DNA from: Desulfobacteraceae bacterium
GTDB taxonomy: Bacteria > Desulfobacterota > Desulfobacteria > Desulfobacterales > SKZT01
Direction of reading: 5' to 3'
DNA: 64,000 bases
Assembly (NCBI GenBank): GCA_011389745.1
Contig: JAABTQ010000001.1
Coordinates: forward strand, 142,497 to 206,496
Shown here: positions 20,433-64,000 of the stretch, in pieces
How the letters are laid out: each line of letters starts with the position of its first letter
Numbering within the stretch: the first letter of the stretch is position 1
The notes under the pieces: model-generated
Seen by the model: only the letters and a program-made list of their open reading frames with translations
Databases searched by the model: none
Told to the model about the DNA's origin: nothing
Position numbers and translations under genes: made by a program

Positions 20433-21029
20433 TTAAATGCTGCTGGGAATTATGTTTTCTATATAATTCTGTACCAGCTTTTCACCGTCTTCTTCCGTGA
20501 TCTCTTTTGGAAGCCTTTCCAATACAAGGTCAAAAGCGGTATCAACAAGTTCTGCACGATATTTTTCCTGTGCACGAACAATCTGGTTGTCAACTCTCCG
20601 TTTGGCTTCAATCAGCATATAACTAATATGCTGCTCGGCTTCTTCGATAAGTTGCTCTTTTCTCTTTTCACCTTGAGAAATAATACGCTCTTTTATAAGG
20701 TTGTATCGATCCTTGCCCTCTTCCAACATTTTTTTGGCTTCCTGAATTTTCTCTTCAGCCTGTTCCTTCATATCCTCGGCCTTCTGAATTTCCTTTTCCA
20801 TTTCATACTTTTTGCCCTGGATAAAATCCATTAGCGGGTTCTTCAAAAACTTGTAAAGCACCCCGGCCAGAATCAAAAAATTAACCCACATCATGATCAT
20901 GTCATATGTGGGACGCCAATTGGCTGCATCATCCGCAGCCGCTGCAGGGCATATGAAAAGGAACATAACGGCAAGTCCAACGATGACGGCTGCAAATAGT
21001 TTGTTTTTTGCGTACTTGTTTGCTATCAA
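20433..21029 (-). CDS. atpF: ATP synthase F0 subunit b
   Basis: 198 residues. A hydrophobic signal-like N-terminus (FAAVIVGLAVMFLFICPAAAA) is followed by a membrane segment near residue 50 (IMMWVNFLILAGVLYKFLKNP) and a long charged coiled coil, the peripheral stalk. Its 5' end overlaps the stop of the preceding b'-type gene by four bases (translational coupling). It is the last gene of the operon. The delta, alpha, gamma, beta and epsilon genes that often follow are absent. Confidence 0.9.
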   Translation of the reverse strand: MIANKYAKNKLFAAVIVGLAVMFLFICPAAAADDAANWRPTYDMIMMWVNFLILAGVLYKFLKNPLMDFIQGKKYEMEKEIQKAEDMKEQAEEKIQEAKKMLEEGKDRYNLIKERIISQGEKRKEQLIEEAEQHISYMLIEAKRRVDNQIVRAQEKYRAELVDTAFDLVLERLPKEITEEDGEKLVQNYIENIIPSSI

Positions 21030-21478
21030 GCCAGCCTCCGTTCCAGGACCTTTTCCATTATTTGGTTGACCAGAATTTCAGATTCCTTTTGTATGGATTT
21101 TTTGGCCTCATCAAGCTGCGCTTTTACATCTACCTTTGCGCTTTCCCTCATGGCCTCTATTTTATTTCTGGCCTCCCGGTAAATTTCAGTGGCTTTCAGG
21201 TCTCCATCTGATTCCAGCTTAGTTTTAATGGAAAAGGCCTCTTCTTTTACAGCTGCTTCATTTTCCGAAAGCATCCGTTTAACATTGTCAAGTTCCTGCT
21301 CTGCTTCAGTGATTTCACCGTACATTTTATCAATATGGTCATTTCTTTCGTTTACTACTGAAAGAAGGGGTTTAAACATCACACGATTGATGATGTAAAG
21401 AAAAATCAGAAAGGAAACAAGCTGAGCTATCAATGTTTCATTAATGCTTATCAGGGCAATATTGCTGATAATTTCCAT
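21026..21478 (-). CDS. ATP synthase F0 subunit b' (second b-type stalk)
   Basis: The 150-residue protein has one N-terminal membrane helix (LIAQLVSFLIFLYIINRVMFKPL) with the MFKPL motif of b/b' proteins, then about 120 residues of coiled coil. With the longer b subunit this makes a heterodimeric peripheral stalk. It lies between the c subunit gene and atpF, overlapping atpF by four bases. Confidence 0.88.
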   Translation of the reverse strand: MEIISNIALISINETLIAQLVSFLIFLYIINRVMFKPLLSVVNERNDHIDKMYGEITEAEQELDNVKRMLSENEAAVKEEAFSIKTKLESDGDLKATEIYREARNKIEAMRESAKVDVKAQLDEAKKSIQKESEILVNQIMEKVLERRLA

Positions 21479-21768: not shown

Positions 21769-21807
21769 TTTATCCTCCTTAAAAGTAAGATATAAAAAAC
21801 TTAAAGA

Positions 21808-22782
21808 TTAGACAACAAAAATTAGGCAAAGACTCACAACCATGGCATAAATCGCCGTAGATTGCGAGACCGCCTGACCGACCAACATTATTCTCATGAG
21901 GCCTCCCGCATTTTCAACACTGCGGGCGACCCAACGGACCGCGCCTTCAGCGGCCATACCGTTGCCGACACCTGGTCCGATACCTCCGAATCCCGTGCTG
22001 ATACCCGCGGCTAAAAGTCCCGCCGATGCCGCAAAAGTGGTGGATTCGGGAAAAGCTTTGAACATCAAAACAAAACTGATTAAGAGACCGAATATTGAAG
22101 GTGTCTGGGCCACTGCCTGGCCAACAAGCATGGTTGTTGTCACAGGTCCCGCTGTTTCGGGCTGCCTGGCGACACCCTCACAACTGGCGCCGGCTGCAAA
22201 CCCGCCGCCCATACCTGAGCCGATGGCTGCCAAACCGGTACTAAGCCCCGCCCCAATCACAGCCGCCCATGTGGGAAAAAGGGGGGCCTTTGAAAAGTCT
22301 ATAAAGATCAACATCAGGGCAACAACCATGGAAAAAATGGCCGGCGTCTGGCATACGGCAGACCCGATCAGCATATTGGTCGTCAGCCTGTTTCCAATCG
22401 ATGGCTGCCTGGCAAGACCGATACATGCCTGACCGCCCGGAAGGCCGGAGCCAATACCCGAACCAATCGCCCCAAAACCCATACAAAAGCCCGCTCCAAG
22501 AAGTGATGCGGCTTTTATCATGGTAGCATCCGGCATTTTGTAAAATAACATCAAAACAGCGATGACAAGTGCAAAAATAGATGCTGATTCGGCAATTGCC
22601 TGGCCTACAAGCATGGATTTGAACACATCGCCTGAAAGTTTTGTATTACGTGATACCGCAAAGTTAGCCTGTGCTGCGGTATACCCCTCGCCAATTGCCG
22701 CACCGATAGCCCCAAGGCCCATAGCCAAGCCGGCACCGGTATAAGCAGCTACACTCACCCAAGTTTGAACGTCGTTTATCAT
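21808..22782 (-). CDS. Four-hairpin fused ATP synthase c-like subunit with a single ion-binding pair
   Basis: 324 residues made of four tandem c-subunit hairpins (about 1-82, 83-161, 162-242, 243-324), that is eight membrane helices. Hairpin 1 keeps Glu32, Gln61, Glu65 and Ser66 (GQAIAESASIF). In hairpins 2 to 4 the position of Glu65 is Gln: VCQTPAIF (Gln145), VAQTPSIF (Gln226), VSQSTAIY (Gln307), and position 32 is Ser112, Gly193 and Asn274. Each helix-turn-helix loop still has the polar loop (ARQP in 2 and 3). It starts 3 bases after the atpB stop and is followed by the normal c gene. Fused rotor subunits with fewer carboxylates are known in Acetobacterium and archaea; a fourfold fusion with one pair is unusual for an F-type operon. 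Confidence 0.92.
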   Translation of the reverse strand: MINDVQTWVSVAAYTGAGLAMGLGAIGAAIGEGYTAAQANFAVSRNTKLSGDVFKSMLVGQAIAESASIFALVIAVLMLFYKMPDATMIKAASLLGAGFCMGFGAIGSGIGSGLPGGQACIGLARQPSIGNRLTTNMLIGSAVCQTPAIFSMVVALMLIFIDFSKAPLFPTWAAVIGAGLSTGLAAIGSGMGGGFAAGASCEGVARQPETAGPVTTTMLVGQAVAQTPSIFGLLISFVLMFKAFPESTTFAASAGLLAAGISTGFGGIGPGVGNGMAAEGAVRWVARSVENAGGLMRIMLVGQAVSQSTAIYAMVVSLCLIFVV

Positions 22783-22785
22783 AGG

Positions 22786-23460
22786 TCATTTTACCTGCAC
22801 TGAAATATATACAACGGTCAACATCGTAAACACAAATGCCTGAATTGCACCTACAAAAATCCCAAAAAACGCAATCAGCAATGGCGGAAGAACCAGGCTA
22901 TAGACCAGGTAACTTACCACCAGTATGATAATCGATCCTCCCATAATATTTCCAAACAAACGGAAGGAAATAGAAACGATCTTTGACATTTCTCCTATAA
23001 TATTTAAAGGAGCCATGATAAAGATCGGTTCACAGTACTCTTTAAGGTACTTTTTAATGCCCTTGCTCCTGATGCCGGCGTAATGGGCAATGAAAAATCC
23101 CATTATACCCAGACTCAACGGCGTATTCAGATCTTTTGTCGGCTCATGCATATGGGGAAACATTCCGATCCAGTTGCAGAGCAACAAAAACATGAAAAGT
23201 GCCGTTATCAAAGGAGCATACTTTTTTGCCTTTTCCTTATCCAGTGCATCTTCGGTTAAACCATAAAGCTTGGTTACGATCATCTCCCCAAAAATCTGAG
23301 CTGTTCCAGGGCGCATTCCCCGGTTTTTGGAGGAATAGTAGCCAAAAAGGATCAGCAGGGCAATAACGATCCATGTCATAACAATGGCTTCCAGGTTTAA
23401 GGTGATGTTATGCCCCATCACCGGAATAATGAGTTGATGAATTCTTCCTAAATCTCCCAT
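22786..23460 (-). CDS. atpB: ATP synthase F0 subunit a
   Basis: The 224-residue stator protein carries the ion half-channels. Its signature helix has SFRLFGNIMGGSII with the conserved Arg that faces the rotor carboxylate, followed by the last hydrophobic helix with AFVFTMLTVVYISV. NWIGMFPHMHEP is the usual loop after the second helix. It begins with MGDLGRIHQLIIPVMGHNITLNLEAI. It is three bases from the fused c-like gene. Length is near the short bacterial form. Confidence 0.95.
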   Translation of the reverse strand: MGDLGRIHQLIIPVMGHNITLNLEAIVMTWIVIALLILFGYYSSKNRGMRPGTAQIFGEMIVTKLYGLTEDALDKEKAKKYAPLITALFMFLLLCNWIGMFPHMHEPTKDLNTPLSLGIMGFFIAHYAGIRSKGIKKYLKEYCEPIFIMAPLNIIGEMSKIVSISFRLFGNIMGGSIIILVVSYLVYSLVLPPLLIAFFGIFVGAIQAFVFTMLTVVYISVQVK

Positions 23461-23469
23461 AGATTGCCT

Positions 23470-23859
23470 CTAAATTTTTTTTCGATGGGTTAACAAAATC
23501 GCACTTTTGAGATAATCCCAAAGGATTACCAACTGAACCATAAAAATTCCGATGATCACGGTGATGAGATCGAATCTATCCGGAAACCTTATGCCCAGAA
23601 CTATGGGTACGGCCAAAAGTACGTATCTGGAAACAATGGAACCTAACGAAATAAGATATGTTTTGCCTCGGGATTTCCCGACTTTATGGGGAAGCACTTC
23701 TCCCATTAAGGCAAAATTTATTGAGCTGAACAGGGTCCCTAATATCAACCCCTTTCCAAGCGAACTTTGCCCTGCTATGATTAAAAAAAAGCCTATAATA
23801 ATCGCTGTTACCAACGCCAAGGAACAATATTTTTTCTGGGTCTCTCTAATCTCTTTCAC
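23470..23859 (-). CDS. atpI: ATP synthase protein I (AtpI-like)
   Basis: 129 residues with four hydrophobic segments, including LVTAIIIGFFLIIAGQSSLGKGLILG and VIIGIFMVQLVILWDYL. This matches the ATP synthase I family found upstream of atpB, which helps c-ring assembly in several bacteria. It overlaps atpZ by four bases and precedes atpB by nine, so the order is atpZ-atpI-atpB. Confidence 0.8.
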   Translation of the reverse strand: MKEIRETQKKYCSLALVTAIIIGFFLIIAGQSSLGKGLILGTLFSSINFALMGEVLPHKVGKSRGKTYLISLGSIVSRYVLLAVPIVLGIRFPDRFDLITVIIGIFMVQLVILWDYLKSAILLTHRKKI

Positions 23860-24119
23860 TGGTCTTCCCCGTTTTTGTTGTCACGGTTTTTCTTCTCTTC
23901 AAATACATCGATAATCTGACGGTATGACACAACCCCACCGCCGACAACTCCCAATAAAATAAAGATGCTCACAAAAATTCCCTTTGTTCCCAGCCATTGG
24001 TCCAGCTTGTAACCGATATAAAGACAAAATAAAATACAGCCGACCATCGTCAGACCCAACTGCATTACAATCTGGAAATTTTCAGCCCAAACCCGGTTTT
24101 TTTTATAATCAAAAGACAT
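23856..24119 (-). CDS. atpZ: AtpZ/AtpI-type small membrane protein
   Basis: The 87-residue protein has two membrane helices (MQLGLTMVGCILFCLYIGYKLD and GIFVSIFILLGVVGGGVVSYRQI) with the YKLDQWLGT linker typical of the AtpZ family. AtpZ partners with AtpI and has been linked to c-ring assembly and Mg2+ supply. It is the first gene of the operon; upstream are 324 noncoding bases. Confidence 0.82.
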   Translation of the reverse strand: MSFDYKKNRVWAENFQIVMQLGLTMVGCILFCLYIGYKLDQWLGTKGIFVSIFILLGVVGGGVVSYRQIIDVFEEKKNRDNKNGEDQ

Positions 24120-41965: not shown

Positions 41966-43093
41966 ATGGGACAACTTTTTCTTGAATTTTTATCCAATAC
42001 CGGATTTGCTCTTGCTGATTATCGTCATTTCATCATGATTTTAATCGGGATCATTTTCATATATCTGGGTATCGCCAAACATTACGAACCTCTTTTGCTG
42101 GTACCTATCGGATTTGGTATCCTGGTAGGCAACATCCCTGTTTTTAAAGGCCTCGGCCTTGGAATATATGAGGACAACAGTGTGCTTCATTACCTTTATA
42201 TGGGGGTGACATCCGGTGTTTATCCTCCTCTTATTTTTCTGGGGATCGGAGCCCTTACAGACTTTTCCACAATGCTGGCAAGACCCATGCTGATGCTTTT
42301 GGGCGCTGCAGCTCAAATGGGTATCTTTCTCACTTTTCTCGGTGCGCTCGCTCTCGGCTTTGCACCCAATGAAGCTGCCGCCATTGGAATTATCGGCGGG
42401 GCGGATGGGCCTACCGCCATATTTTTAACCGCAAAATTAGCCCCGCACCTTATCGGTCCCATTGCCGTAGCCGCCTATTCCTATATGGCCCTTGTCCCGG
42501 TGATTCAGCCGCCTATTATGAAGCTTCTGACCTCCAGAAAAGAACGGTTGATCCGGATGGAAGAACCCAGGGAGGTCTCCAAAAGAGAAAAAATCATATT
42601 CCCTATCTTAGGCTTTTTACTTTGCTGCTTTTTGGCGCCTGCGGCCTTACCCCTTTTGGGCATGCTATTTTTCGGTAATCTGCTCAAAGAATGTGTTGTT
42701 GCCGAGCGTCTGGCACAAGCCGCCCGAACATCGGTTATCGACACCGTCACCATTCTTCTGGGGCTGACTGTCGGTGCCAGTACCCAGGCCGATGTGTTTC
42801 TGACACCCCAATCCGTGGGCATTTTTATTCTTGGCGCTACTGCCTTTGGCATAGCCACCGCATCCGGAGTGATTTTCGCTAAAATCATGAACCTGTTTTT
42901 GAAAGCTAAGATCAATCCGCTGTTGGGCGCAGCAGGTGTATCCGCCGTTCCTGATTCCGCACGCGTTGTTCAGATGGTGGGACAGGCCGAAGATCCCAAT
43001 AACTTCCTGTTGATGCATGCCATGGCACCCAATATTTCAGGTGTTATCGGTTCCGCAATCGGAGCTGGTATTTTATGGAGTTTTGTTGGATAA
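41966..43093 (+). CDS. oadB: OadB-type Na+-translocating decarboxylase beta subunit
   Basis: The 375-residue membrane carboxylase subunit decarboxylates carboxybiotin while exporting Na+. About ten helices are apparent. The family-specific GGADGPTAIFLT segment holds the Asp needed for Na+ coupling in Klebsiella OadB, and GVTSGVYPPLIFLGIGALTDF is the N-terminal signature. The C-terminus has MHAMAPNISGVIGSAIGAG. It could serve oxaloacetate, methylmalonyl-CoA or glutaconyl-CoA; the alpha and biotin subunits are not here. Stop and next start overlap (TAATG). Confidence 0.92.
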   Translation: MGQLFLEFLSNTGFALADYRHFIMILIGIIFIYLGIAKHYEPLLLVPIGFGILVGNIPVFKGLGLGIYEDNSVLHYLYMGVTSGVYPPLIFLGIGALTDFSTMLARPMLMLLGAAAQMGIFLTFLGALALGFAPNEAAAIGIIGGADGPTAIFLTAKLAPHLIGPIAVAAYSYMALVPVIQPPIMKLLTSRKERLIRMEEPREVSKREKIIFPILGFLLCCFLAPAALPLLGMLFFGNLLKECVVAERLAQAARTSVIDTVTILLGLTVGASTQADVFLTPQSVGIFILGATAFGIATASGVIFAKIMNLFLKAKINPLLGAAGVSAVPDSARVVQMVGQAEDPNNFLLMHAMAPNISGVIGSAIGAGILWSFVG

Positions 43094-59744: not shown

Positions 59745-61823
59745 TTAGGCTGCCTTTGTTTTTTTCCCGGTATGCATGTAGCAGATAAGGCCACACCGAA
59801 GGCATCTTCCAGCCTCTTTTCTTGCCATATGTTCATCAAACCCTTTTTCAAGTTCTATAACATCACCGGTTTCTTTAGGACTTCGCACCGGCATAATGGT
59901 TCTGGAAGATATTTTCACATCTTCTTTACCAAGTTCATATATATCTTGAACAACCGAATTTTCAGTGAGAACATTTTCATCCAGGAACGGATCGACATTG
60001 AACATGATCTGATGAATTGAAGCAGCTACACGTCGGCCTGCTCCAATGGCTTTAATGGCTGCATGATAATCGGACATGGTATCGGCCTTGGAAAAAAATC
60101 CGCTTTCATCTTTAAAAGCAGGGCGCTTATAAGGCTCCTGCGCAACCCATTTTAAAGGTCCTTGTTCTTTGGCTGCTTCTTCTTGATTCTCCTCCTCAGG
60201 ATCTATCTCAGGCTGAGCCTTTGTAAAAATCAGTTCCGGAAACCTTCCCCCGGCCAAAAAGAGAGTTTGTGCATTCAAAGTTTCGGTTTTATTCGTCTCT
60301 ATATCAATAACTTCGATTCCAGTCAGTTTGCTCGCCTCACCGAAAAGCCGGTTCACAGCCGTCTGGAATTTGATATGAATCCCTTCCTGTTCAAGTTTAG
60401 AGGCATCCACAATTCCTCCGGGCATCTGATCTTCAGCTTCCCTGAACAGGATTGTAATATTTTTTGCCCCGAGACTTTTCAAAAGTCCCACACTGTCTAT
60501 GGCCACGTTATCGCCACCGGCCACTACCACATTTGATCCTACCGTCAATGCTCCTGATTTTTGTCCATGCTTGATAAGATCCACCAACAAATAGGATCCG
60601 GGCACCAGTTGTTCAACTTTTTCCAACGCCCCCCGTGCCAAACGGCTGTCCCATCCACCGGTGGTTAATAGTGCGGCCTTAAAACCACCGGTCAACAATG
60701 ATTCGATGGTAAAATCTTTACCGAGAGCCATTTTTGTCTCGGCTTTAACTCCCATCTCAAGGATACCATCGATATCGTAGTCAATGATTTCCCTTGGCAA
60801 CCTGTTATTTGCGATTGCGCTTCTTAACAATCCACCCAACTGAGAAGTCGCTTCAAACACAGTAGCCTCATGACCAAGACGACATGTAAAAAAAGCCGCT
60901 GATAGTCCGGAAACACCCCCTCCGATAATTGCCACCTTATGGCCCGTATCCGGAGCTTTGAATGGAAAGGAACGTTGGCCGATTTCCTTTTCGTAATCAG
61001 CCACATATCTTTTTAAGAAATTGATCGCCACCGGTTCGTCAAGAAGACTTCTTCGGCATTCCAATTCACATGGGCGAGGACATATACGTCCTATGACCGA
61101 GGGAAAAGGATTTCGCTCTTTAATCACCTGAACCGCTTCAGAGTAGTTACCTAAAGAAATTTGTCGAATATACTCACAAATATTGATCCCGGCAGGACAG
61201 GCCCGCTGACAGGGTGTCGTGCACTCTTCGGTAGTATATTCTTTCAAAATTCTTCGGGTTACCGAGGAAAGATTGATGATATGTTTAGGACATACACGTT
61301 CGCAGGTGCCGCAGCCGGTACATTTTTGTTCATCCACCTTGGGAAGATTGTCTTCGCCGATAACAATGGCATCGAACGGGCAGGCTCTGGCACAACTTCC
61401 CAGCCCCAGACAGCCTATGGTGCAGACTTTCATTCCGCCTCCCAGAAGAGCGGCTGCCCTGCAGTCCGAAAGACCATCATAGATGTATTTGATATCCGCA
61501 TCCTGAAATCCGTATGTACATCCCGGACGCGCAATATCGGGTTCTTTGGCTTCTATGGCAACGCCTAAAATGGCGGCAATGGCCTGAGCCACATCATCTC
61601 CCGCAGCTACACAAGAATTAGGAGCGGCTTTACCTGCTACAATAGCCTCTGCATTGGAACTGCATCCCGGAAGACCGCAACCACCACAGTTGGCTCCGGG
61701 CAGTGCATCTTCCACCGATAATATCTTGGGGTCGACATACACGTAAAAAACCTTTGACGCCACAGCCAACCCGATACCAATGATCAGTCCCAAGCCTCCA
61801 ATCATGAAAACCGCTGATAACAT
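59745..61823 (-). CDS. RnfB-like ferredoxin fused to a GltD/NfnB-type flavoprotein
   Basis: 692 residues in three parts. About 1-30 is an RnfB membrane anchor (VFMIGGLGLIIGIGLAVASKVF). The Fe-S region follows: CGGCGLPGC, CTIGCLGLGSCARACP, and CTGCGTCERVCP, the RnfB pattern. From about 200, the GltD-type start CTTPCQRACPAGINICEYI, FAD binding VAIIGGGVSGLSAAFF and the NAD(P) fold VVVAGGDNVAIDSVGL lead to the end with CLRCGLICYMH. It follows the NuoF-like gene after 123 bases. This combination would tether a transhydrogenase-like module to the membrane. Confidence 0.9.
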   Translation of the reverse strand: MLSAVFMIGGLGLIIGIGLAVASKVFYVYVDPKILSVEDALPGANCGGCGLPGCSSNAEAIVAGKAAPNSCVAAGDDVAQAIAAILGVAIEAKEPDIARPGCTYGFQDADIKYIYDGLSDCRAAALLGGGMKVCTIGCLGLGSCARACPFDAIVIGEDNLPKVDEQKCTGCGTCERVCPKHIINLSSVTRRILKEYTTEECTTPCQRACPAGINICEYIRQISLGNYSEAVQVIKERNPFPSVIGRICPRPCELECRRSLLDEPVAINFLKRYVADYEKEIGQRSFPFKAPDTGHKVAIIGGGVSGLSAAFFTCRLGHEATVFEATSQLGGLLRSAIANNRLPREIIDYDIDGILEMGVKAETKMALGKDFTIESLLTGGFKAALLTTGGWDSRLARGALEKVEQLVPGSYLLVDLIKHGQKSGALTVGSNVVVAGGDNVAIDSVGLLKSLGAKNITILFREAEDQMPGGIVDASKLEQEGIHIKFQTAVNRLFGEASKLTGIEVIDIETNKTETLNAQTLFLAGGRFPELIFTKAQPEIDPEEENQEEAAKEQGPLKWVAQEPYKRPAFKDESGFFSKADTMSDYHAAIKAIGAGRRVAASIHQIMFNVDPFLDENVLTENSVVQDIYELGKEDVKISSRTIMPVRSPKETGDVIELEKGFDEHMARKEAGRCLRCGLICYMHTGKKTKAA

Positions 61824-61946
61824 GTTTTACACTCCTGTTTATTCTATTGTTCCGGTGCCTGTTCAAGGCACTTTATTGATAAGGTCTTTTAACAACCTTT
61901 TTTGAATTATTTCAACCAATAAACCCGGATGTACGATACCTTATGA

Positions 61947-63794
61947 TTAAAATATCGCACCGAACTTGCACTTATCAAAGCAGGTCATACACTTGATACA
62001 AATTTCCTTATCGATGACAGCCACTTCTTTCTTTTTCCAGGCTACAGCATCTACAGGACAGGCTTTAAAACATAACCCGCACATTGTGCATAGCTCGGGA
62101 TTTACTTCAAAATCAAGAAGATTCACACAGCGCTTGGCCGGACATTTTTTTTCATAAATATGCGCTTCATATTCATTACGAAAATAACGGAGCGTGGAAA
62201 GAACCGGGTTTGGACCGGTCTGACCCAAACCGCATAGGGAGGATTCCTTGATTACATATGAGAGTTCCTCCATTTTTTGGATATCTTCCGGCTCACCCCT
62301 TCCATCACAAATTTTTACCAAAAGCTCCTGAAGTCTTCTTGTCCCCTCCCTGCATGGTGTGCATTTGCCACAGGATTCATCCTGAATAAAGTCCATAAAA
62401 AAGCGCGCCATGTCTACCATACACGTATGGTCATCCATAACAATGACACCTCCGGAGCCCATGATTGCACCGACTTTAGCGATTTCCTCAAAATCAACCG
62501 GCGTGTCCAGGTGTTCTTCAGGTATGCATCCTCCCGAAGGTCCTCCCAGCTGAACGGCTTTGAACTTCCGCTTTCTTGGAATCCCTCCGCCGACATCGTA
62601 GATAAGCTCCCTTAAAGGCGTGCCCATGGGAACTTCCACCAAACCGATATTGTTGACATCACCGGAGATGGCAAACACTTTGGTCCCTTTGCTGGTTTCC
62701 GTTCCGACACTTGCGTACCATGTGCCACCTTTAATCATAATCTGGGACACATTGGCAAAGGTTTCAACGTTATTTAAAATGGTTGGTTTTTCCCAAAGGC
62801 CTTTATGGGCCGGAAAGGGCGGGCGAGGACGAGGCATCCCCCGTTTTCCCTCTATCGAACGCATCAGAGCCGTTTCTTCTCCACAAACAAACGCACCGGC
62901 TCCCTGATAAATCTCAACATCAAAATCAAAACCTGAACCTAAGATATCCTTTCCCAAAAGCCCGTGTTCCCGGGCATCTTTGATGGCAAGGCCCAGTCGC
63001 TTTACAGCCAGAGGATATTCGGTACGGCAATAGACATAACCTCTATGGGAATCAATCGCTTTTGCGGCAATAACCATACCTTCAACCACAGCGTGAGGAT
63101 CAGCTTCAAGGATACTTCTGTCCATGAAAGCTCCGGGGTCACCTTCATCAGCATTGCACAGGACATATTTAACATCTCCCGGGCTCTGCCTGGCAAAACC
63201 CCATTTAATACCTGTGGGAAATCCCGCACCCCCTCGTCCTCTAAGGCCTGAAATTTTCATTTGCTCGATAATATCTTCAGGGGTCATTTCCGTAAGAGCC
63301 TTGGCAAGACCTTTGTAACCATCCCTGGCAATGTAGTCATCTATGGATTCGGGATTTATAATGCCTTTATTTCGAAGGGCCCTGGGCAACTGATTGTGAA
63401 AAAAAGGAATATCGTCCTGGCGGGGAATACGCTTTTTGGTTACCGGATCCTTAAAAAGAAGCCTTTCAAGCGGTGTCTTTTTGAGCACCTGAGATTCGAT
63501 CAGTTCAGGAACATCCTCGGGCTTTATTTTCTCATAGAAAATTCCCTCGGGTTGTACCACCATGATCGGCCCTAATGCACAAAATCCATTACATCCTGTC
63601 TCAACCACTTTGACCGTGTTTTCCAAGCCCCTTGCCTTAACTTCGTTTCTAGCGACATCAATGACCTTAATACTTCCTGTTGCGTGGCATCCGGTACCAC
63701 CACAAATGAGCAGGTCGGTCCTGCCCTCTTTCATCAGCTCTCCGGCTGCTTTTTCCTGAAGCTTTTTAAGGCCATCCACGGATAATTTCACCAT
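61947..63794 (-). CDS. NuoF/HydB-like NADH-binding flavoprotein with extra Fe-S domains
   Basis: 615 residues from ATG 63794 (GAAGGAGAGAAAAAT upstream). An N-terminal [2Fe-2S] thioredoxin-like domain (CGGTGCHATG and TGCNGFCALGP), FMN/NADH-binding GLRGRGGAGFPTGIKWG and CNADEGDPGAFMDR, the SLBB domain, the [4Fe-4S] binding ESCGKCTPCREG...SLCGLG, and two C-terminal clusters CTMCGLCFKACP and CIKCMTCFDKC. This layout is that of HydB/HndC of electron-bifurcating hydrogenases and of StnABC-type transhydrogenases. No NuoE-like subunit is within the window; it may lie to the right. Confidence 0.92.
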   Translation of the reverse strand: MVKLSVDGLKKLQEKAAGELMKEGRTDLLICGGTGCHATGSIKVIDVARNEVKARGLENTVKVVETGCNGFCALGPIMVVQPEGIFYEKIKPEDVPELIESQVLKKTPLERLLFKDPVTKKRIPRQDDIPFFHNQLPRALRNKGIINPESIDDYIARDGYKGLAKALTEMTPEDIIEQMKISGLRGRGGAGFPTGIKWGFARQSPGDVKYVLCNADEGDPGAFMDRSILEADPHAVVEGMVIAAKAIDSHRGYVYCRTEYPLAVKRLGLAIKDAREHGLLGKDILGSGFDFDVEIYQGAGAFVCGEETALMRSIEGKRGMPRPRPPFPAHKGLWEKPTILNNVETFANVSQIMIKGGTWYASVGTETSKGTKVFAISGDVNNIGLVEVPMGTPLRELIYDVGGGIPRKRKFKAVQLGGPSGGCIPEEHLDTPVDFEEIAKVGAIMGSGGVIVMDDHTCMVDMARFFMDFIQDESCGKCTPCREGTRRLQELLVKICDGRGEPEDIQKMEELSYVIKESSLCGLGQTGPNPVLSTLRYFRNEYEAHIYEKKCPAKRCVNLLDFEVNPELCTMCGLCFKACPVDAVAWKKKEVAVIDKEICIKCMTCFDKCKFGAIF

Positions 63795-63813
63795 ATTTTT
63801 CTCTCCTTCGATA

Positions 63814-64000
63814 TTACCAGGATCCATCCAGTCCCCTGAGGCCGGTCATGTAAAGTCGTCCACAAGCCACAAAAAGGGAAAAACGGGTGCTGAGAAGAGG
63901 CATGTTATGTCTTTTTGCAGTTTCAACAACCTCTTCTTCAGGCCTTTTTCCCCTCACAAAAACAATCGCCTCCACCCCGGCTTTCATGGCGGCATCAACT
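63814..64000 (-). CDS. DRTGG-domain-like protein (partial, C-terminus only)
   Basis: Only the last 62 codons are visible, ending TGA-free to TAA at 63814. The text VDAAMKAGVEAIVFVRGKRP and later HNMPLLSTRFSLFVACGRLY is that of the DRTGG-domain proteins that lie in hydrogenase and NADH-module operons. It ends 19 bases before the NuoF-like start, so they are co-transcribed. The gene continues beyond the right edge. Confidence 0.62.
   Translation of the reverse strand, partial: VDAAMKAGVEAIVFVRGKRPEEEVVETAKRHNMPLLSTRFSLFVACGRLYMTGLRGLDGSW

Follow-up and report, generated by a model that had tools for sequence, protein, structure and literature searches.

The stretch of DNA analyzed here, 64,000 nucleotides in length and hereafter called the window, comes from a Desulfobacteraceae bacterium (GenBank assembly GCA_011389745.1, contig JAABTQ010000001.1, positions 142,497 to 206,496). 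It holds an operon for the Fo part of an F-type ATP synthase, with all genes on the minus strand in the order atpZ-atpI-a-c4-c-b'-b (Table 1). The c4 gene, hereafter the fused c, encodes four c-subunit hairpins in one chain and stands next to a gene for an ordinary single c subunit. F1 genes are absent at the locus; the operon is a second Fo without F1, a point absent from the initial annotation of this DNA. Its subunit b is 21-33% identical to the b of the F1 operon, is kept at full length and aligns along the whole of canonical b. Membership in the V/A-type ATPases was considered and rejected, as the neighbors are F-type a, b, b', AtpI and AtpZ, and neither A/B nor V-type stator genes accompany them. 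The N-ATPases were rejected as well, since these have their own F1, with beta and epsilon first and no delta, and the locus has no F1.

Table 1. The second Fo operon and its parts, in window positions; residues 32, 65 and 66 of the ion site follow I. tartaricus-type numbering
Feature	Position	Strand	Basis and remarks
AtpZ-like	23856..24119	-	PF09527
AtpI-like	23470..23859	-	PF03899; listed open reading frame (ORF) begins with GTG at 23859
Subunit a of second Fo	22786..23460	-	PF00119; FRLFGN with the stator Arg kept
Fused c subunit, 4 hairpins, 324 residues	21808..22782	-	ORF list, Pfam, alignment, AlphaFold2; E-Q-Q-Q ion-site pattern; starts with ATG at 22782
Hairpin 1, residues 5-80	22543..22770	-	E32, I63, E65, S66; ion site intact, unlike those of hairpins 2-4
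Hairpin 2, residues 88-160	22303..22521	-	S112, Q145, T146; neutral
Hairpin 3, residues 168-241	22060..22281	-	G193, Q226, T227; neutral
Hairpin 4, residues 250-323	21814..22035	-	N274, Q307, S308; neutral
Shine-Dalgarno of single c	21774..21780	-	AAGGAGG, strong; duplex energy -12.1 kcal/mol, versus -3.8 for the fused gene and -5.8 for subunit a
Single c subunit, 82 residues	21520..21768	-	Full two-carboxylate Na+-type site, E32/V63/E65/S66/T67/Y70
b' peripheral-stalk subunit of second Fo	21026..21478	-	ORF list, Pfam
b peripheral-stalk subunit	20433..21029	-	Last gene of the operon; then clpB on the opposite strand, no F1 genes

The fused c is an F-type c subunit both by its score and by its position between a and b. 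The Pfam ATP-synt_C family (PF00137) matches it in four domain stretches with 178 bits (curated cut-off 24, E 3.5e-53). An AlphaFold2 model, computed from an alignment of 62 natural homologues, predicts an all-helical protein of four hairpins, several of its helices interrupted by a kink (mean predicted local distance difference test score, pLDDT, 95.3; predicted template modeling score, pTM, 0.91). The alignment of the hairpins places Glu32 and Glu65 in hairpin 1 alone, with Gln at position 65 and Ser, Gly or Asn at position 32 in hairpins 2 to 4, and the single c gene starts 39 nucleotides downstream. The initial annotation had described the protein in these terms, and had proposed structure prediction and alignment of the hairpins as a check; its description stands. 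It had also named an alternative, that the ORF is a collapsed assembly of tandem atpE genes. This is ruled out, because the DNA of the hairpin units has diverged (49-54% identity among the four, 53-57% between them and the downstream single c gene) and a repeat search found no near-identical copies. The same gene occurs in independent genomes, among them the closed chromosome of Desulfosarcina widdelii and other single-contig genomes. The source assembly is in 80 contigs, which might speak for an artefact of assembly or sequencing, or for a decaying pseudogene. With its presence in closed genomes, some 150 distinct homologues, residues that do not vary and this degree of divergence among the hairpins, that reading is refuted and retains practically no probability.

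We then read residue 65 in every hairpin of 148 distinct fused proteins, each hairpin aligned to one profile. With one letter per hairpin, the patterns were EQQQ (62 proteins), EQQE (50), EQEE (14), EQQQQ (12), EQE (3) and EQ (2), with EQQ, EQEQ, EQQQQE and EQQS found once each; a lone QQQ row is a broken frame without hairpin 1 (L058). Beyond the order of the window, Desulfobacterales, there are also EQQQE, a form of six hairpins, EQQQQQ, which at L334 (family f105) stands in a complete operon with c and F1, and one double hairpin in which both Glu are retained. Locus L343, with a double-hairpin c that keeps both Glu and the gene order a-c-cc, is possibly near the ancestral state. Hairpin 1 has Glu65 in all complete fused proteins and hairpin 2 has Gln in 148/148, while the others have either residue; in 68 proteins Glu occupies the last hairpin. 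The residue at position 32 goes with that at position 65. Hairpins with Glu65 carry Glu or Asp at 32 in 225 of 230 cases, and those with Gln65 never carry an acidic residue there (0/366), but Ser, Gly, Asn, Ala, Cys or Thr instead. This covariation is far beyond chance: the two carboxylates are kept or lost together, as expected where an ion site is under selection. A tree of subunit a implies at least about 30 changes of the site pattern and about 21 of the hairpin number, counts that are good to the order of magnitude, the tree being a quick one with many weak forks. Most hairpins of the fused c also keep the loop Arg-(Gln/Asn)-Pro, which is typical of the contact with gamma and epsilon. The fourfold form is one member of a series of 2 to 6 hairpins that is common in Desulfobacterota.

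The initial annotation had suggested a search for homologues in Desulfobacterales, and these proved abundant. Scanning one genome per species yielded 56 fused-c loci, nearly all in Desulfobacterales; the matches include the closed D. widdelii chromosome and one metagenome-assembled genome (MAG) of Candidatus Methylomirabilis. Within the order, the fused c is present in 144 of 292 sampled genomes and in 91 of 138 genera, so that half of the surveyed genomes carry it, many of them from marine sulfate-reducing bacteria; in a sample of the phylum it is present in 43 of 395. The gene order Z-I-a-fused c-c-b'-b is nearly constant across loci, and a single c adjoins the fused c in every complete operon seen. 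Several loci depart from the common form. The fused c gene (EQEE) lies ahead of a rather than after it at L101 (genome G097), and at L035 (7000-7604) two tandem single c genes stand beside the fused c, as do c2/c3 of Acetobacterium woodii (A. woodii). Locus L106 (genome G177) is a second fused-c Fo copy, with no intact a gene, in a genome that already has one. In the Methylomirabilis MAG the fused c has three hairpins and belongs to a complete F1Fo operon, which carries the sole F1 of that genome (L063/L120); transfer between phyla is possible. No fused c was found in G070, a 95% complete genome of the same genus as that of the window.

The gene inventory bears on which F1 this Fo might use. 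At 99.9% completeness, the genome of the window contains a single alpha/beta pair, which lies on contig 67 together with b, delta, gamma and epsilon. Of its two a genes, one is in the window; the other, on contig 56, belongs to an atpZ-atpI-a-c cluster whose c is ordinary. On the closed D. widdelii chromosome an N-ATPase that brings its own F1 is at 4.02 Mb, followed at 4.25 Mb by the fused-c Fo; the F1 that has its own b'/b lies at 6.9 Mb and the ordinary Z-I-a-c cluster at 7.29 Mb. We counted a genes and F1 alpha/beta pairs in 28 genomes that carry a fused c, assigning alpha/beta, FliI-like and Rho matches inferentially by score and length. In 27 of the 28, two of which (G010 and G212) have one F1 gene broken or missing, the a genes exceeded the F1 pairs by exactly one. 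F1 genes are absent from the fused-c operon throughout the order. In families f105, f117 and f94 and in the Methylomirabilis MAG, the a-cc-c-b'-b block runs directly into delta-alpha-gamma-beta-epsilon, and the ordinary Z-I-a-c stands alone; several of these operons hold the sole F1 of the genome. The partner of F1 thus varies by lineage, ordinary stalk genes in one and the fused-c Fo in another. The simplest reading of the surplus a genes and of this exchange is that the two Fo probably share one F1. A clean pairing of an H+ Fo with a Na+ Fo was also considered and was dropped, as the ordinary c has M32 in this genome but Q32/E65/S66 in most relatives.

The ion is likely Na+, judging from the site residues. 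The single c beside the fused c reads EVESTY at sites 32/63/65/66/67/70 in 128 of 131 cases, and the Na+-type motif (Gln/Glu32, Glu65, Ser/Thr66) is present in all 131 and in hairpin 1 of all 62 EQQQ proteins. The window also encodes the beta subunit of a Na+-transporting decarboxylase (41966-43093, plus strand; OAD_beta, 515 bits), which is evidence that this genome has Na+ energetics. For Desulfobacteraceae, abundant Na+-Rnf has been described (PMC11887813); with both, a Na+-driven enzyme fits the setting. A line of evidence that is independent of the alignments comes from the translation signals. For 104 loci we computed, as a duplex energy, the pairing between the ribosome-binding region and the anti-Shine-Dalgarno sequence, taking as the start site the best candidate within a few codons by the same rule for all genes. 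The median was -10.9 kcal/mol for the single c, -4.1 for the fused gene and -5.2 for subunit a. The single c had the stronger signal in 103 of 104 loci, and the signal of the fused gene was no stronger than that of the one-copy subunit a. A stronger signal for c is expected if the ring holds one fused chain and many c, and the signals lend indirect support to this composition.

Taken together, we consider it fairly probable that the operon encodes a second, Na+-type Fo without F1 whose rotor is a hybrid of one fused chain and several single c, and which docks on the F1 of the cell and moves fewer ions per ATP. We infer from these data the membership of the fused chain in the ring, the stoichiometry, the Na+ specificity, the sharing of F1 and the lower ion/ATP ratio. 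Each fused chain would contribute one ion site, as would each copy of the single c. Because three neighboring hairpins carry Gln in place of the ion-binding Glu, about three fewer ions would pass per turn for the same three ATP. If the ring is assumed to have 11 hairpins, the size reported for all characterized Na+ F-rings (PMC3692424), EQQQ with seven c would give 8 ions per turn, or 2.7 per ATP, EQ would give 10 per turn and EQQQQQ would give 6. Fusion would fix the number of silent hairpins in each ring; two single subunits mixed at random would leave it variable. As the second Fo has its own a, b' and b and no F1, it would most likely dock on the only F1 of the cell, alternating with the ordinary Fo. 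The mixed ring with fewer ion sites had been suggested in the initial annotation. It is the best-supported reading, given the kinship with A. woodii c1, the neighboring Na+-type c, its stronger translation signal and the operons that bear F1.

Several points weigh against this hybrid rotor. The ring is predicted from its genes, and the docking on a shared F1 is deduced from gene counts, to which G003, with one a gene and one alpha/beta pair, is the exception. The Na+ motif can mislead, as in Sporomusa ovata, where a Q..ET/S motif accompanies a Na+-independent ATPase (PMC9430772). The most serious point is mechanical. A contiguous block of three neutral hairpins, and of up to five in relatives, would be hard to drive past subunit a in the direction of synthesis; in the 11-hairpin ring the carboxylate-free arc is computed at 131 degrees for EQQQ and 196 degrees for EQQQQQ. 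In hydrolysis F1 could push the ring through such an arc, whereas synthesis would need elastic or thermal motion to carry the ring across. The neutral arc makes it at least as likely that the enzyme is an ATP-driven Na+ pump of low ion/ATP ratio, or a synthase only at high sodium-motive force, two roles to which a low ratio would be well suited; the arc could also mean an enzyme that only pumps, or another arrangement.

One alternative is a ring made of the fused chain by itself, for instance three chains with 12 hairpins, 3 sites and one ion per ATP, the single c forming another ring or the two being used at different times. Even spacing of the sites would avoid a single asymmetric dead arc, and a single chain of 13 hairpins is known from Methanopyrus (PMC2359735). 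We hold this to be very unlikely: the single c is a constant neighbor, the translation signal of the fused gene is as weak as that of subunit a, the five- and six-hairpin forms would require other ring sizes, and A. woodii c1, the known relative, makes up a minority of the subunits in its mixed ring. The initial annotation had also offered a role for the fused chain as a cap or assembler of the ring. As a template, cap or plug it would not rotate past subunit a, and its mostly neutral sites and a translation signal that fits one copy per ring could be read in this way. The intact, co-varying ion site of hairpin 1 in all complete sequences argues against it, as do the Glu of the last hairpin in 68 proteins, the Arg-(Gln/Asn)-Pro loop in most hairpins and the place of the A. 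woodii-type subunit in a working ring, and we consider such a role improbable. The lack of F1 genes throughout the order and the low identity of b to its F1-operon counterpart would suit an Fo that operates outside ATP synthase, as a regulated Na+ leak or channel or as the drive of another machine. The same block is joined to F1 genes in other families and in the Methylomirabilis MAG, its b is full-length and alignable, and AtpI and AtpZ are encoded with it, which leaves this idea, too, with a low probability.

If the hybrid rotor is correct, it would bear on how the ion/ATP ratio is set. This ratio is normally fixed by ring size; here it would seemingly be set by the silencing of hairpins, graded from one to five. 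More tentatively, we propose that Desulfobacterota may have one F1 head with two interchangeable motors, one built on an ordinary c ring and the other on a hybrid ring of Na+ type, as a natural gearbox in which the number of sites has been tuned repeatedly by fusion length and by Glu-to-Gln exchange, up to five contiguous neutral hairpins. Were two Fo indeed to share one F1, these bacteria, which are abundant in sediments, could change gear or ion while keeping one and the same ATPase head. The natural variants could serve to test the number of sites against torque and against the thermodynamic limit of ATP synthesis. An uninterrupted neutral arc of 100-200 degrees also poses a challenge to models that require each hairpin to carry an ion past subunit a. 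Elsewhere in the window, at 59745-63827 (minus strand), a flavin/iron-sulfur oxidoreductase and a NuoF-like protein are neighbors, probably as parts of an electron-bifurcating or Hdr-type complex.

Acetogens already provide a known hybrid rotor whose fused c is partly silenced. The initial annotation had held a fourfold fusion with one carboxylate pair beside a standard c to be a case not well described. The c1 subunits of A. woodii and Clostridium aceticum (C. aceticum), with the same Glu/Gln logic, are a closer precedent than it allowed; in the open-access literature we found described neither an F-type series of 3 to 6 hairpins nor chains with as many as five silent ones, nor their wide distribution among Desulfobacterota, nor the rule of one surplus Fo. 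The best match in the PDB by sequence is 4BEM chain J, the A. woodii subunit c1 and a proven member of a hybrid ring, and a fold search with the predicted model returned the same chain (4bem_J, TM 0.81 on the target) as the only match under E = 0.001. In the alignment the two hairpins of A. woodii c1 read ..AET.. and ..AQT.., Glu and then Gln, the order found in all complete fused proteins of our set. As in the acetogens, the operon combines a fused c that has fewer carboxylates than hairpins with a single Na+-type c, an arrangement with fewer sites per turn. The A. woodii ring has 10 sites and 3.3 Na+/ATP (PMC7793690), and the Q..ET / Q..QT pair of C. aceticum c1 was interpreted as lowering Na+/ATP (PMC7911925). 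The acetogen c1 has two hairpins, one of them neutral, whereas the fused c here has four (2-6 in relatives), with up to five neutral. Site 32 is Gln in c1 and Glu in the fused c, and the F1 that shares the operon in the acetogens is missing from it throughout the order studied here.

For a fused multi-hairpin F-type c, or for two Fo with one F1, the sole remark we found in the open-access literature concerns Desulfococcus oleovorans. Its duplicated ectopic F0 locus, 0A-0C-0B'-0B, is described as a second Fo without F1 that possibly arose by horizontal gene transfer, and its a and c are reported to cluster with those of Thermotogae (Koumandou and Kossida 2014, PMC4154653). This is probably the same type of operon as that of the window; the published passage on the locus treats it as an oddity of one species or a transfer, and the fused c, the loss of ion sites and the sharing of F1 do not come up in that passage (PMC4154653). 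The Na+ c ring of Fusobacterium nucleatum has the same two-carboxylate site as our single c, Glu32/Val63/Glu65/Ser66/Thr67/Tyr70, but is a homomeric 11-mer (PMC3692424). Hairpin fusions, often with loss of sites, are likewise found among V/A-type c subunits (E. hirae NtpK, eukaryotic c, the M. jannaschii triple and Methanopyrus kandleri, whose chain of 13 hairpins keeps all sites; PMC2359735); those motors have no such mix of fused and single F-type c. The N-ATPase is likewise an extra Na+-type rotary ATPase, and some genomes with the fused c have it too (L118 in D. widdelii), but it has a complete operon, its own F1 and a single-hairpin c. The hybrid-rotor survey of Brandt and Mueller from 2015 is reported to name about a dozen anaerobes whose operons pair an F-type c gene with a V-type one.
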